A DNA stretch of 64,000 nt from Byssothecium circinans (lineage: Eukaryota > Ascomycota > Dothideomycetes > Pleosporales > Massarinaceae). The position numbers and the translations under genes were made by a program. The notes beneath the pieces were generated by a model. The model searched no databases and was not told where the DNA came from. It worked only from the letters and a program-made list of their open reading frames with translations. The stretch is from NCBI GenBank assembly GCA_010015675.1, contig ML976984.1, positions 1,256,568 through 1,320,567 on the forward strand. Direction: 5' to 3'. This document shows positions 29,353-36,300 of this stretch, one piece after another (within the stretch, counting starts at the first letter, position 1; each line of letters opens with the position of its first letter).

Positions 29353-31472
29353 TTATGGACTTCCGGTCCCTTGAAAGTTATGCTTTGCGCGTTTGCCCTT
29401 TCTTTCGTTATATTCCTCAAGACCTCGTTTTTTCCGCTCTTCCGAGTGTGAAGCTTTGAACCTCTCCGCTACCGCTAATGCTGCTCTTCTGTGAATCTCC
29501 TTGAATGCCGATATCGCGCTTTCATTGATGGTACCATTATGCACCCTGGCGAAGTGCCGTAAATGCTCCTCTGGCGAGAAAATGGCATAGCCAGGATAAT
29601 GTTCGGTTCCACAACGGCCAATTACGCATCTGACGCAAGGTTCTCCAGGTTGTTCCTCTATACAGATCTTGATTAATAACTTGCCGGACTTTTGCTTAAG
29701 TGCAGTTTTGAAATCTGCACCAAAGTTTTTAGCCCAACCTGGCGTGTCGAAGATAATGAGCGTCCCAGAAGTAGCAAAGTCTTTGCCCAAGACGAAGCGT
29801 AAGGTGCTCGCATCATTGGCCCAGCCTACACGGCCAAATCTATGCCAGGCTTTCAGATGGCGTATGATGTAATCACGGAAAGTCGTGACACCCCAATCGT
29901 GGATTTGGTCCACCAGGTAGAGGAGCTTCCAGGCACTTCGTTCATCCGCGATACGACTGCTCCAAACCCTTTGATATAACTGCTCCGTCAATAGATATTA
30001 GTGAAATGGCTCATGACGTGAAACAGGTGTGATGTACATACATAGACGGTGTCGCTCACGCCAGGGTGGCCTGCATGTTCTCGCTTCAAACGCGGGCGCC
30101 TATAGCCTACCATGATGTGCCAGTGTGCCCCAAATGAAGTGAGCGCAAAAACTTGAGCACTATGGCTTTCCTCGAACTGGTATTCGCGATCCCTCACCTC
30201 GGACTGACCGGGAACGCGAGCGAGAGCATCCATCATATCCAAATATGCTGCTCCAGCAGCGCAAGCTTGATGTCGAGCCTCGCGAGGATCACCATTCCAA
30301 CCTTTCGCTTCGTACACCGCGAAAGGGAATACCAAGTCTGCCTCACCGCAACGCGGATCCGAGATAAGCCCGCAAGATCGATGCAATGCTAGAGCCTGGA
30401 GTCGTTCGGCATCGAGCTCGTAAGACGCAACTGCGTTCTGGTAGTGTTCCGGGCGAAATGTTGCCAGCCCAAATGTCGCATCTGGAATCCTCTTTGCGAA
30501 TCTGGACTTGCCCGTCAATGTGCATGAAACTGGATGGACGTCCGGAATCTCGGCGTAATATTCACGTTTGTCCCTGATATCTCAACAAAGTAAGCATCGC
30601 CTCACATCGGGCCTCAGGACATAGCAAGCACTTACGCAGCAAGAGCTGGGTCGTTTCTCATCTGGCCAAAGACATCAGTCCATGCATCAGCCTCCCAGGC
30701 ATACTCGGCCTTGTTCCATCGCTCATTGTCCATCACGTGCAGTAGGAAATTCCTAGCTCTTGCTCGACGATGATCTTCAGTAGGGTCATCAAACATACTA
30801 TCGTCGATCGTCGGTATCCATAAGTCGTGGTCTGCAGTTACCCAATGAGGTGAGTAGTGATGCCGATAATAGACTCCCCGCGCATTCCAGCTCCAATCAC
30901 GACCAAACCTTTCCATGCTGTAGGGTGGCATGGCTTTCCCAGGTAGGAGGTAGCTGTCGAGAAGGTCAGCATAATTTTCTAGGTACGTGGTGAGCAGCAT
31001 ACATATGGCAATTAACAAAGGTTTGCTCAACCGCGCGTTCAATCTTGTCTTTGCAAGTCTCTAGCATGCGCTCCATGTCCACAAGTTGTTCTACGAACAT
31101 AACTTGTTCCACCTTCATGCGTCCCCTCCTCTCAGATTTCGGCAATTGGCGCATAGGTTCGAAGAAAGCATCGACGTGTTCCCGGTAACAGATACGATAA
31201 TTTTCAACATCGGTATCAAGCGGGAATTGAGCATTTGAAAGCGTACAGACCCATTCCTTGATTTCGTTGGGATGTCGTATCCAAGGGCCGTCTAGACGTC
31301 GCGGTACATCAAGTTGCCTCTCCTTGATCCCCTCATTCTCGGGGGTGGGTCGCAGTCGGAGGACGGGTGCCGTGGGTGCAGTGTACGTCTTGTCAAGATT
31401 GTCAGTCATGTTGTGGCTTGCGTTCAATGGAAAACTTTGTGGAGATGGACGGAACATATTTGAACATGTCAA
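29353..31472 (-). CDS. Protein with PD-(D/E)XK nuclease-like motif, accessory
   Basis: Four exons: 31472-31003, 30953-30636, 30573-30042 and 29979-29353, with 49-62-nt introns; 648 residues. In exon 3, FAKRIPDATFGL supplies an Asp, and about 50 residues later ADLVFPFAVYEAKGW supplies a Glu-x-Lys after a beta-strand-like run. Then ARHQACAAGAAYLDMM and FGAHWHIMVGYRR follow. This D...ExK order with a downstream Gln helix is the pattern of PD-(D/E)XK nuclease-like domains found in many fungal accessory proteins. The nuclease assignment is inference from the motif. The C-terminus has a Cys/His cluster (CVRCVIGRCGTEHYPGY) and a basic tail (RKKRGLEEYNERKGKRAKH). The start may be the ATG at 31457 or 31412. 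No frame breaks, so it may be active. Confidence 0.65.
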
Positions 31473-32545
31473 GTTGCACAGGCAGCAGCTCGACAGGGAT
31501 ATTCAGCTACTGCGCCATGGTGGCTATGATGTTTCATCTGGTACGAACACCTTCTTGATGTGAAGAACGCAACATCTTTAATTTCTTGGCTCATAATCAG
31601 CTAAACTCTACAAGCACTGCGCCTTGTCACCCTCGACGGGACAAACAGGGCTACCAGCCACCATGGTAGGATATGGACTCATTCTTTATGCGGCCTCTTT
31701 GATTGGCGTACACTCTTTAACATAAAAATCTCTACCAATATTAAGGAACGTCTTCAAATTTTAAGACGAATCGTTGCCAGATCCAGATATTTTAGTCACT
31801 CTATTGGCTGTTGCCTGTTGTAGAATCCCTACCGGACAAGGCACAGTATTTGTGTCGGCCCCATTCTAATGCAAGACGCGTCGCGTCAGACGAGGCTGTC
31901 ACAAGAAGAGAGCGTGCGCAGGGGATCGCGCGAGCCACATGTGGTTCCCAACTGTACCGTAGAGATTGGACTGCTGGGCGCCAGGCATGTCAGAATTGAA
32001 CCTCTCGCAAGCTATAGGCTATCCGAATACGTGTGTTCAAGTCACTTCCCCGTTCACTTATCGCTTGTTGCGCGACTGCGACTGACTGTTGGTCAGCAAA
32101 TTCACCACGCTATCGGAAGACGGGCATTTGATTCCAGTCCGCTACGGAAGCTCAGACAGTTAATTCTTGGGAACTTCTGCAATGTCTTCTTTGCTCTTTG
32201 GCCAACCTGGCATGCGTACTGCCATGCAATGCGATCTGTTTCTTCCCCGTAGCAATCTATGTGTTTGAGCGTCTTGGCGTCGGCTACAGTGGCTGTGTCT
32301 TGCCTTATTTGGTTGTATTAGTCCTATTAAGGGAAATTAGCGCGCTTAGTAGTGTAGCGCGCTTGATAGTACTTTACGTTATTAAGTATCTTAAGCTTAC
32401 CAGCTTCACTAACGACTTTTGTGCATTATGTCGTAAAGTATTGGTAGCTGAAGTGATTTCCCTCGAGACAATAGATGTCAGCCCTGAAGCATCGCACACC
32501 ATATTTGGTGGTCTGCTCACAGCACGTACGAATCTTGCGGCAGCC
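31473..32545. other. Gene-free right part of the 3.3 kb insertion
   Basis: Upstream region of the leftward gene. Short frames only. An AT-rich block near 32300-32400 with repeated GCGCGCTT motifs has no clear identity. Confidence 0.5.
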
Positions 32546-32567
32546 TGGTAGGGAAGTAGTCCGGTTA

Positions 32568-32803
32568 CAGTGGTGACCGAAATCGGTTTCCGGTTCCTAT
32601 ACTTCGGTTATTCTGCGTGCACGGCCGCTGGAAAGGCGCTTTACTAAATAGATAATAGCGCTTTGCAGGGGTGGTACATAAGGCTTGGAAAGTGGCGAAA
32701 TTATAAGCCGCGCCGCATGTAGCTCTACCTACCTGTTCTCTATACATTTTGAAACATTTACAAGGGTGTGGCCGGTGCGGGTCGGCCGCCCTCCCTGCTA
32801 GCA
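32568..32803 (+). repeat. Left terminal inverted repeat
   Basis: Reverse-complement match to 36957-37192 over about 236 bp, with scattered C/T and G/A differences; the inner border is near GGCCGCCCTCCCTGCTAGC. Confidence 0.88.
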
Positions 32804-33239
32804 CGATCAAGCCGTTCCTCTGCCTTTTGATGAAGCCTAAGCGTGGCAAATCCTCACAGGTCGTTCTATAATTAGCTATCTTGCCACTGAGACGATTCTC
32901 AAAGCATCAACGCAGCGAATGGTCAGACTATATATATTTACGCTTATCGCTTTTGAAAATAGAGATCCAACCTTTTACCAATCGTACAATTTGTCCAAAC
33001 GCAACCCCGGTTTCCTTATCTTTCGTCTTAGAACGGAAACTGAAGCGAGCAAATCGCTGAGAGCCACATAGCAGTTGGACGGGCATCCCACCTTGCCCCG
33101 CTCTCGGTTCACTATCGTTTCGCTTTCAACCTGAGTGCTTATCCCCAAACCGGTCGCACTTCATATTTATTTCCATTTGCTAGGTGGGCTATATGGTTGG
33201 AAAGTATCATCAGCAAGCTACGTGATCCCTTTGAACGAA
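32804..33239 (+). promoter_or_regulatory. Presumed promoter and leader of the micro-exon/RelA gene
   Basis: About 430 bp between the left inverted repeat and the ATG at 33240. A TATATATTTA run lies near 32931. It has pyrimidine-rich patches and no long open frame. An upstream ATG at 33193 opens a short frame ending at TGA 33223-33225. Promoter function is inferred only from position. Confidence 0.4.
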
Positions 33240-34919
33240 ATGGTACGTGAGGCAACCTGAAACACAGTGGAGCGACCCTTTGAGTTGGATCGATGGCTGA
33301 CTTGGGCCTGCTTGGCGGTTATAGGAGGTAAGTAAACCTGAATGCGCAGAGAATATATTTTGGACGTATGGCTGACTTTGGCCTGCTTGGTGGTTACAGA
33401 GGGTAAGTAAACCTAAATGCGCAGGGGATATGTTTTAGACAGATAGCTGACTTAGGCCTGCTTGGCGGTTATAGTCTGTAAGTAAACCTAAATGCGCAGA
33501 GAATATATTTTGGACGGATTGGCTGACTTAGACCTGTTTGGGTGGTTATAGAAGGTAAGTAAACCTAAATGCGCAGAGAATATGTTTTAGACGGATAGCT
33601 GACTTTGGCCTGCTTGGCGGTTACAGAAGGTAAGTAAACCTAAATGCGGAGAATATGTTTTGGACGGATGGCTGACTTAGGCCTGCTTGGCGGTTACAGA
33701 AGGTAAGTAAACCTAACTACGCAGAGAATATATTTTGGACGGATGGCTGACTTGGGCCTGCTTGGCGGTTATAGTTCGTAAGTAAACCTAAATGCGCAGA
33801 GAATATATTTTGGACGGATTGGCTGACTTAGACCTGTTTGGGCGGTTATAGAAGGTAAGTAAACCTAAATGCGCAGAGAATATATTTTAGATAGATAGCT
33901 GACTTGGGCCTGTTTGGCGGTCATAGTCTGTAAGTAAACCTAAATACGCAGAGAATATGTTTTAAATAGATAGCTAACTTGGGCCTGCTTGGCGGTTATA
34001 GGACGTAAGTAAACCTAAATATGCAGAAAATATATTTTGGACGGATGGCTAACTTAGGCCTGCTTGGCGGTTATAGGACGTAAGTAAACCTGACTGCGCA
34101 GAGAATATATTTTAGACAGATGGCTGACTTGGGCCTGCTTGGCGGTTATAGTACGTAAGTAAACCTAACTNNNNNNNNNNACTGCGCAGAGAATATATTT
34201 TAGACAGATGGCTGACTTGGGCCTGCTTGGCGGTTATAGTACGTAAGTAAACCTAACTACGCAAAGAATATGTTTTAAATAGATAGCTGACTTAGGCCTG
34301 CTTGGCGGTTATAGGAGGTAAGTAAACCTGAATGTGCAGAGAATATATTTTGGACGGATGGCTGACTTGGGCCTGCTTGGCGGTTATAGGAGGTAAGTAA
34401 ACCTGAATGCGCAGAGAATATGTTTTGGACGGATGGCTGACTTGGGCCTGTTTGGTGGTTATAGCGAGTAAGTAAACTTAGCCGTAACAGCGTGCATCTC
34501 TTTGTTGAATGGATGGCTGACTCTCAGCGGTTATAGCTACAGCCAGTAAGTGACCCTAGTGGATAAGAGGGTATTTCTTCATTCATTTGATCACTAACTC
34601 GGGCCCGCTCGATGTTCGTAGTCTGTAAGTAAAGAGGCTGGGAATGTCTGCCCGTTGAATCGATAGCTAACTAGAGCCCGCTTGGCGGTTACAGCCACGT
34701 CCGGTAAGTGACCCGGAGACAAAAGTATTTTTTTGTTGATTTGATTGCTGATACAGGCCTTGCTGGTGTTGTAGCCACAGCCAGTAAGTGGAGCAGGTGC
34801 GGAATAATCTTGATTGAATTGGTAGCTAATTAAGGCCGGCATTGCCGGTTACAGCCAGTAAGTGAATCGAATTGGAACAGAGAGTATTTCTTCGTTGAAC
34901 TAATCTCTTTTTGCATTAG
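33240..34919 (+). other. Tandem array of introns separated by one-codon micro-exons (5' part of the RelA/SpoT gene)
   Basis: ATG 33240-33242 directly abuts the donor GTACGT. Then come about 21 units, the first 16 with a 75-bp period. Each has GCTGAC or GCTAAC (branch point), about 20 bases, TATAG or TACAG, three bases, then GTAAGT. Presumed micro-exons: GAG 33325, AGG 33400, TCT 33475, AAG 33552, AAG 33627, AAG 33700, TTC 33775, AAG 33852, TCT 33927, GAC 34002, GAC 34077, TAC 34152, TAC 34240, GAG 34315, GAG 34390, CGA 34465. More diverged units follow: CCA 34543, TCT 34622, nine bases at 34695, CCA 34781 (or nine bases from 34775), CCA 34855. The core introns are mostly 72 nt. All micro-exons are multiples of three. 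Splicing is inferred from signals, not shown. Confidence 0.75.
34171..34180. other. Assembly gap of ten N inside the array
   Basis: The flanking units (micro-exons at 34152 and 34240) are nearly identical. The gap probably hides collapsed or unresolved units, so the true unit count is unknown. Confidence 0.95.
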
Positions 34920-36300
34920 CCGGAATCATGACCCGCCAGAGCCTGTGATATCCAATTTCATTGACGGATATGAATTTAAGTACGACTTTTACTTCGCGTT
35001 GGCCCAACGTGCAAGCTTGCGATGTGAGGAAGCGCTCGAACAGAACGGAATACGTGCCATCACCACTTTCCGTGCTAAACGACCCGACCGACTCAAGGCG
35101 AAACTGCAACAACGACAACAGCAAAGACGCGAAGAGAGTCGGAAAGTGTATGCAAACGACTATGATATTCGCTCCGATATAGTGGATCTAGCGGGCGTGC
35201 GCATTGCGCTATATTTTCCTGATGACCGTGTCAAAGTCGAAGAGATCATTAGGGAGGCGTTCATCGTGAAGAACAAGAAACAAATGGAGGGATGGAAAGC
35301 AACTCCCAATGGACTCGTCCAACGGTTTGATGGCTACGTTGCCGACCACTACTGGGTGCACCTGCAGGAGCACCCATCCACAGAGCAGCGCTATACGGGA
35401 CAGCTCATCGAAATTCAAGTTGCATCTTTGTTAATGCACGCATGGTCCGAGGTCAACCACGACCTTGGTTACAAGCCGGTTCACGGAACCGCATCCCAAG
35501 ATGAGCTTAGAATTCTCGATGGCATTAATGGCCTTGTGCTTACGGGCGAATTATTCCTACAACAACTGCAAGCCGCTACCAAATCCCGCATATCATCTGC
35601 GGATCGAAAGTTCTCGAATCAGTACGAGCTCGGAGCTTTTATGCAGAACCACATTTCCAAAAACACTTCCGAAACACCATTGATGGGTCGTCTTGACATA
35701 CTCCTCGAGGTCTTGAAAGCTCTGGACCTAGACTCGCCAAGACATTTGGATACTAAGCTGGACGGATGGGACAATCAAAGGGCATCCGAATCTTCAGTCG
35801 CTCTCACAGTCATGGATCATATCTTTTCGACTCCAGTGGCTGGAGACTTTTCGGAAAGTTATCCCTCAAAACGCCAAATTCTGCTCAATGCCATAGCGGT
35901 ATATGACGGGCTGTCCGGACCAATGAGAAGACCTGTTCGAGATCTCGTCGGCTCTCAGCGAGGAATGGCTCGTTTTTACCAGCTCATGACGGTCCTGGAC
36001 CGGAACGACTCTGCCGAGGATCGGAATTGTCATTCGCAAATAGATGAATTATGGCATTGGTTTGAGAAAAGTGTCTATATCGAGGCTCGAGTTGCCATTG
36101 GCATAGCCTCCTTGAGGGTACAGCAAATCATAGACCGACTAAAGCTGCACTTAGAAGCCGGGAGACAACAGAGTAAAGGAGAAGAGAAAAAATGGAAGGA
36201 CGGGAATGGGGACGAGAGGAAGAAGAAGGAGGAGGAGGAGGAGGAGGAGGAGGAGGAGAAGGAGAAGGAGAAGGAGAAGGAGAAGGAGAAGGGTTATTGA
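34920..36300 (+). CDS. RelA/SpoT-domain protein, large 3' exon of the micro-exon gene
   Basis: A long open frame with no ATG before the domain; it begins at a TTGCATTAG acceptor (34911-34919). Numbering from the GTG at 34945, the RelA/SpoT nucleotidyltransferase domain spans roughly 4-180. It shows TFRAKRPDRL (about 41), DIVDLAGVRIALYF (about 78, the metal-binding Asp in DLAG), GYVADHYWVH (about 130) and GQLIEIQVASLLMHAWSEVNHDLGYK (about 152, the second metal ligand Glu in EIQ). These are the synthetase motifs of (p)ppGpp-type enzymes; no HD hydrolase is present. The remainder is helical and ends in a long Glu/Lys tract encoded by a GAG/GAA microsatellite. The product's nucleotide substrate is unknown. 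The N-terminus must come from upstream exons. Confidence 0.85.
36220..36291 (+). repeat. GAG/GAGAAG microsatellite coding the acidic tail
   Basis: A purine-only tract of (GAG)n followed by (GAGAAG)n at the 3' end of the RelA/SpoT ORF. It encodes Glu-rich, then Glu-Lys alternating residues; length changes here would keep the frame. Confidence 0.92.

Follow-up and report, generated by a model that had tools for sequence, protein, structure and literature searches.

How a fungal gene could come to hold a run of exons of a single codon each, separated by near-identical introns, and whether such a run is spliced as it is written, is the question raised by a tandem array in Byssothecium circinans. 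The array lies in a window of 64,000 nucleotides (assembly GCA_010015675.1, contig ML976984.1, positions 1,256,568 to 1,320,567 of the forward strand). The window is this whole stretch, in which the positions below are counted unless a contig is named.

Organization of the array

Between 33247 and 34919 on the + strand, the sequence reads as 21 consecutive units of an acceptor, a short exon and a GTAAGT donor, i.e. as a tandem array of 22 introns and 21 microexons. The original prediction had named about 21 tandem units, each with a branch site, a TAG or CAG acceptor and a GTAAGT donor, and all of these were recovered: GTAAGT follows the microexon in 21/21 cases, the acceptor is TAG or CAG in 22/22, and a branch-like CT[AG]A[CT] site is present 20-29 nt upstream of the acceptor in 22/22 introns. 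Exactly three bases per unit had also been expected, which holds for 18 of the 21 microexons, the remaining three (starting at 34537, 34695 and 34775) being 9 nt long; all are multiples of three, as predicted. Two of the three 9-nt microexons contain an internal CAG, use of which would shrink them to CCA.

In order, and all on the + strand, the microexons are GAG (33325..33327), AGG (33400..33402), TCT (33475..33477), AAG (33552..33554), AAG (33627..33629), AAG (33700..33702), TTC (33775..33777), AAG (33852..33854), TCT (33927..33929), GAC (34002..34004), GAC (34077..34079), TAC (34152..34154), TAC (34240..34242), GAG (34315..34317), GAG (34390..34392), CGA (34465..34467), CTACAGCCA or CCA (34537..34545), TCT (34622..34624), CCACGTCCG (34695..34703), CCACAGCCA or CCA (34775..34783) and CCA (34855..34857).

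TRF reports a 75-bp period with 15.7 copies. Introns 1 to 11 measure 78, 72, 72, 74, 72, 70, 72, 74, 72, 72 and 72 nt, and introns 12 to 22 measure 72, 85 (including a run of ten N), 72, 72, 72, 69, 76, 70, 71, 71 and 62 nt, about 11-12 of the 22 being 72 nt long. The 75-bp period given for the first 16 units therefore describes most of them, with intron lengths of 70, 74, 78 and 85 nt also found there. Reading each unit as a 72-nt intron followed by a 3-nt exon is still the best reading, supported in a sister array by a conserved peptide (see below), once intron lengths of 62-85 nt are allowed. Across the array intron length is free modulo 3 and exon length is always 3n, and retention of the introns would introduce 37-55 stops per frame.

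The run of ten N at 34171..34180 is probably an assembly gap. Its flanks are identical in 78/78 bases, and because of this overlap the unit count is uncertain: scaffolding may have duplicated one unit, with microexon 13 a possible duplicate of microexon 12 across the unmerged gap, or further units may be missing.

Chains of such units were searched for in the window and 15 loci (one consisting entirely of N, several chosen by pattern match and not at random), with the reversed sequences as a control. Runs of at least three units were found only in the window array and in two loci described below, L029 and L040, and the reversed sequences of the 15 loci and the window gave no run of this length. 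Chains reached at most 2 units in 1000 dinucleotide shuffles of positions 33000-35200 (each N taken as A), compared with 21 observed; in 1000 shuffles of L040 the maximum was also 2, compared with 4 observed under the strict rule. This confirmed that the array of splice-marked units is real.

The host gene and its reading frame

The array is followed by a main exon (34920..36300, +) that encodes a RelA/SpoT-domain protein and whose frame requires two bases from the array. RelA_SpoT (PF04607) is its sole Pfam domain and scores 46.2 bits, above the cut-off of 27. In a homologue search, 869 of 7999 scored candidates matched at E 0.001, and P0001, a relative with 90% identity, is among the matches listed (120 of the 869); no relatives of P0001 were found in viral contigs. 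The RelA/SpoT protein has an EKEKEK tail, encoded by a hexamer repeat of 12 copies at 36221-36292.

Since the main exon has no in-frame ATG before PVISNF, the gene must start upstream of it. Upstream, an open frame without ATG extends over 33044-33247, and to this frame belongs a probable upstream exon (33184..33246, +) which would follow the acceptor TTTGCTAG and end in ..RDPFERNG(T). No start codon was located. The first donor had been placed at 33243; 33247 (GTGAGG) fits better, matching the next unit in 12/15 bases without gaps, and the route through ATG and the GTACGT donor at 33243 gives no joint open frame. With the donor at 33247, the upstream frame, the array and the RelA/SpoT exon form one open frame (phase 2), which reads ..WLESIISKLRDPFERNGT RGLRRSSSLTTTTRSDYSHLHVRHSHH RNHDPPEPVISNFIDGY.. 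into the RelA/SpoT domain and is the most consistent frame. When all microexons are read and the TAG acceptor at 34919 is used, the other two phases are closed, the third by stops inside the array. Another in-frame route would start at the ATG at 33193 and leave at a weak donor at 33204 (ATGGTTGGAAA followed by GTATCA). A start at ATG 33240 with the donor GTACGT was rejected, as it gives MERSKKKFKSDDYYEERLQPSPRPPQPPPES and then a stop three codons into the main exon.

The region search found no homologue of the N-terminal portion of the protein encoded in the window, matching only P0001-P0004 at 48-50% coverage. The upstream frame before the array has no Pfam match, hence neither NACHT nor ANK, and eight further + strand segments (31300-33068) contained no NACHT or ANK; the one match there, to YdjM, was weak at 14.3 bits and below its cut-off of 29. 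No nucleotide-binding domain was identified in the main exon or in the upstream segments examined, which may not include every upstream exon.

RelA/SpoT domains also occur elsewhere in this genome. L035 (C7:1150500-1157000) combines one with ankyrin repeats in a single frame of 791 aa, and in L038 (C72) ankyrin-like sequence was recognized by eye in a frame next to that of a RelA/SpoT domain. Across the whole genome at least 153 matches to the HET domain were counted, some of them carrying internal stops.

Sister arrays in the genome

The genome of 48.4 Mb in 109 contigs was searched with the pattern GTAAGT-gap-AG-NNN-GTAAGT, which gave 36 matches compared to 47 for the reversed control. Eighteen fall in the window array, five on C38 (L029), one on C7 (L040) and one on C48 (L030), and 11 are single; only their clustering, not their number, marks the arrays. 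The chain scan gave nothing for four of the single matches (L031, L032, L033 and L039), and the other seven were judged from the pattern output alone. The estimate of how frequent arrays are in the genome rests on this GTAAGT pair pattern. One-codon exons with GTAAGT showed no genome-wide excess (567 matches, 652 for the reversed pattern), and the idea that isolated exons of this kind characterize the whole genome was dropped. Arrays with GTGAGT were likewise discarded, as 40 matches were found for 42 in the control and these looked, on inspection by eye, like simple repeats and isolated matches.

One window unit used as a query gave 16 matches, all inside the window array, and no dispersed copies; none were found for the L030 unit either. 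A shared 5' motif matched 23 times, 18 times in the arrays on C8, C38 and C48 and five times elsewhere (five in the control), with no array visible by eye around those five.

L029 (C38:17400-18100, minus strand) is a near-identical array of 68-bp units in which nine triplets were read. Its donors are ATAAGT in 2/9 cases, and its TpA/ApT ratio of 1.72 is RIP-like by the usual threshold. L030 (C48) encodes ankyrin repeats in frame (Pfam), followed by Y, an intron, the microexon GAT and a second intron; the two introns (71 and 54 nt) are alike where both are readable. Since only this one microexon is present before at least 10,095 bases of N, which may represent a gap or masked sequence, L030 is only a possible array start. 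Its ankyrin exon carries an in-frame TAG within an ankyrin repeat. The sister arrays follow the same plan with intron sequences unlike those of the window, and the genome contains, in all, two further arrays and the apparent start of a third.

A conserved peptide at the kinase-HET array

In L040, a protein kinase exon is followed by seven 3-nt exons, set among eight introns of 47-155 nt, and by HET exons; the kinase exon and the HET exon are both in phase 0. The microexons spell A D Y T L P P, with ..GILGRNYR before them and LKGWEF.. after them. This reading was fixed before any homologue was compared, on the basis of the frame, the splice signals and the 3-nt plan. The strict chain scan gave the first four microexons, and the last three were added by eye, aided by the frame; these depend on one intron of 155 nt, a GTAAGC donor and an AAG acceptor. 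A second AAG acceptor is needed for the final HET exon. No mutual likeness was seen among the L040 introns.

A corresponding contiguous peptide,.DY.[LVS]P[PK], was found in 26/31 homologues of L040, and DY[TS]LPP in 17/31. P0122 reads GRNHK ADYSLPP LKGWEF and P0123 (Neocucurbitaria) reads GRPIR ADYTLPP LKDWEF. Five homologues have no motif (P0121, P0146, P0147, P0148 and P0149), of which P0147, P0148 and P0149 cover only 36-54% of the queried region and P0146 covers 99%. The gene model of P0121 (Kalmusia) reads GRNHR LVGWEF and misses exactly the seven linker residues, perhaps because a gene finder overlooked the same microexons. Kalmusia and Neocucurbitaria, both Pleosporales, provide the two best organism-named homologues, which by themselves make this order probable for the fungus.

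Half of the motif carriers (13/26) end at RCET... At this point the L040 frame runs from its exon into the following intron and a stop there, so that the endings are those expected of a single undivided frame for kinase, linker and HET in these 13; P0139 (Alternaria) is the only organism-named protein among them. For some of the 26, which are proteins from annotated genomes, exons may have been joined in the gene models. Taken with the homologous peptides, runs of one-codon exons seem to reach protein in this fungus, and the L040 introns appear to have been inserted between pre-existing codons. As the peptide has the same length as in the contiguous homologues, introns and not residues would have been gained. 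Loss of the introns in the relatives via reverse transcription is possible and is less economical, since many relatives seem to be uninterrupted.

Apparently different histories of introns and triplets

In the window, mean pairwise identity is 0.90 for the introns (15 units) and 0.40 for the triplets; in L029 it is 0.86 (8 units) and 0.43. In both arrays the triplet is the most variable 3-base stretch of the ungapped sequence examined. The kind of change differs as well. Pairwise comparisons, which are not independent and were therefore weighed together with the raw columns, gave 602 transitions and 70 transversions for the window introns (2-16 without 13), and 59 transitions and 126 transversions for the triplets, close to the 1:2 ratio of unrelated bases; the corresponding values for L029 are 227:23 and 26:40. 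Among the 72 intron columns of the window 22 vary, 19 of them by transitions alone, and all four bases are present in each of the three triplet columns. Judging by the contrast in transitions and transversions, introns and triplets do not appear to share a mutational history, which suggests that the introns were copied and the exons were not.

An alternative that would still be spliced is that exon and intron were duplicated together by unequal exchange, after which the codon diverged under diversifying selection. The near-identical tandem units with their fixed period are in line with this, and fungal immune repeats are said to evolve in such a way. Introns 4 and 8, which share the downstream triplet AAG, differ at 1/74 positions, and introns with the same upstream triplet were on average closer (distance 0.103 compared to 0.148, in a comparison that was not permuted and included the divergent intron 1). 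Equal neighbouring triplets are also commoner than chance (5/15, reached in 67/10000 shuffles), one of the five pairs being possibly an artefact of the gap; such pairs may stem from stretches of similar amino acids or from some duplication of whole units. Against this stands the transition/transversion contrast. Moreover, introns with the same triplet were not significantly closer in permutations (426 and 1000 of 5000), and the L040 peptide is no longer than that of its homologues. When half introns were compared with flanking triplets, no tracking was observed (889, 2338, 1081 and 1714 of 5000 permutations), and in 11/16 of the closest intron pairs of the window no flanking triplet is shared. 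Duplication of whole units is therefore considered unlikely. For the same reasons, namely the transition/transversion contrast and the equal length of the L040 peptide and its homologues, the earlier idea that units are gained or lost whole and that the peptide grows residue by residue is doubtful.

Inclusion or skipping of the microexons

It is rather improbable, and slightly more so than duplication of units, that the array is skipped or its microexons are only partly included, which would make it a hypervariable intron or a regulatory delay. Splicing from the donor at 33247 to an acceptor at 34939 would skip the whole array in frame and give the product MVQPVISNF.., and homologues such as P0002 and P0006 begin just a few residues before that point. 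However, this product bypasses the TAG acceptor at 34919, the donors after the microexons are intact GTAAGT in 21/21 cases, and exons stay 3n while intron lengths vary; in L040, the codons are found in homologous proteins. An unspliced minisatellite or assembly artefact, to which the TRF call and the overlapping flanks of the N run might point, is highly improbable in view of splice signals common to arrays of other sequence, the variable triplets with their contrast to the introns, and the peptide in the L040 homologues.

Discussion

The reading that is preferred here, and that we consider probable, is that copied introns of ~72 nt split the code for a linker of the RelA/SpoT protein and are spliced out, so that single codons are joined. 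The stretch would be the linker-coding part of a fungal gene with the RelA/SpoT domain after it, into which an intron of ~72 nt was copied repeatedly in successive codon-sized steps. Each intron would be a near-identical copy, and each 3-nt exon an old and distinct piece of coding sequence. The spliceosome would remove the introns from the transcript and the single codons would be joined, with skipping of some microexons as an optional source of linker variation. Since introns in fungi are short and recognised across the intron, a tiny exon flanked by well-marked introns can be spliced. The array anatomy, the sister arrays, the peptide of the L040 homologues and the contrast between introns and triplets were computed here; from these we infer for the window gene that all microexons would be included, that introns would be copied one codon along, and any function that the linker may have.

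The linker is likely to be flexible and to precede a RelA/SpoT effector domain of the fungal NLR-type kind. N-terminal domains of fungal NLRs are reported to include RelA/SpoT, HET and kinase domains. On account of these domains, of L035 and of the HET-domain matches in this genome, the array may serve to diversify the linker in a protein of immune type. Of the four places observed, three are in or beside immune-type domains, namely RelA/SpoT, kinase with HET, and ankyrin. More tentatively, introns of this lineage might multiply by copies placed exactly one codon from an existing junction, making arrays in immune-type genes. A conceivable route would be reverse splicing with a slip of the exon by three bases, followed by reverse transcription and recombination.

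Small exons in series are known from other organisms. Schistosome microexon genes have runs of very small exons with lengths divisible by three, as does the window; their exons are longer than one codon and their introns are not known to be near-identical, in contrast to the one-codon exons and near-identical introns described here.

A closer parallel is found in Tuber melanosporum, where NACHT-ANK (nank) NLR genes are described as having dozens of 3-bp exons with reported alternative splicing (PMC4986451, PMC3689799, PMC10197012, PMC9815663; NLR genes in all four papers, specified as NACHT-ANK in three), so that the idea that genes of this build are unknown is not supported. Tens of consecutive 3-bp exons are shared with the window, in which 18 of 21 units are exactly 3 nt, and the L030 microexon also sits after ankyrin repeats. 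For the Tuber microexons, Iotti et al. 2012 is reportedly the source, being credited by citing papers. In contrast to the Tuber genes, the window array precedes a RelA/SpoT domain and that of L040 separates a kinase from a HET domain. For Tuber, the accessible text does not mention near-identical introns or an origin by intron copying, and alternative splicing is a reported feature there. By analogy, the array may work like those of Tuber. A 2024 paper states that functional microexons had not previously been described in filamentous fungi. In the open-access literature, a scope that mostly excludes subscription papers, no arrays of one-codon exons were found outside Tuber, and none with near-identical introns. 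Single-codon arrays as such are not new; the novelty lies in the gene contexts, in the near-identity of the introns and in the evidence on origin.

The introns themselves can be compared to introner-like elements of Dothideomycetes, described as spliceosomal introns that are nearly identical and have recently multiplied inside genes (PMC4457414). Near-identity is shared with the window array (0.90 over 15 units); insertion into existing coding sequence, a further trait of these elements, is supported by homologues for L040 alone. However, introner-like elements are reported in hundreds of copies in unrelated genes, whereas the window unit was found only in its own array, and in four fragments neighbouring elements are 145-626 bp apart (PMC4457414). 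Proliferating stwintrons and sister introns of Hypoxylaceae are said to be inserted seamlessly as copies at novel gene positions, without target duplications; one-codon spacing is not mentioned in the accessible part of that work (PMC8469720).

On a practical level, gene finders may drop one-codon exons, of which the Kalmusia model lacking seven residues may be an example, and the arrays suggest that a fungal spliceosome copes with runs of three-base exons. The origin and spread of spliceosomal introns is an old open question. With near-identical copies in one array, and unlike introns with unbroken homologues in another, the gain of introns could be traced one codon at a time, and the location of three of the four places gives a hint that intron gain may be connected with rapidly changing recognition genes.
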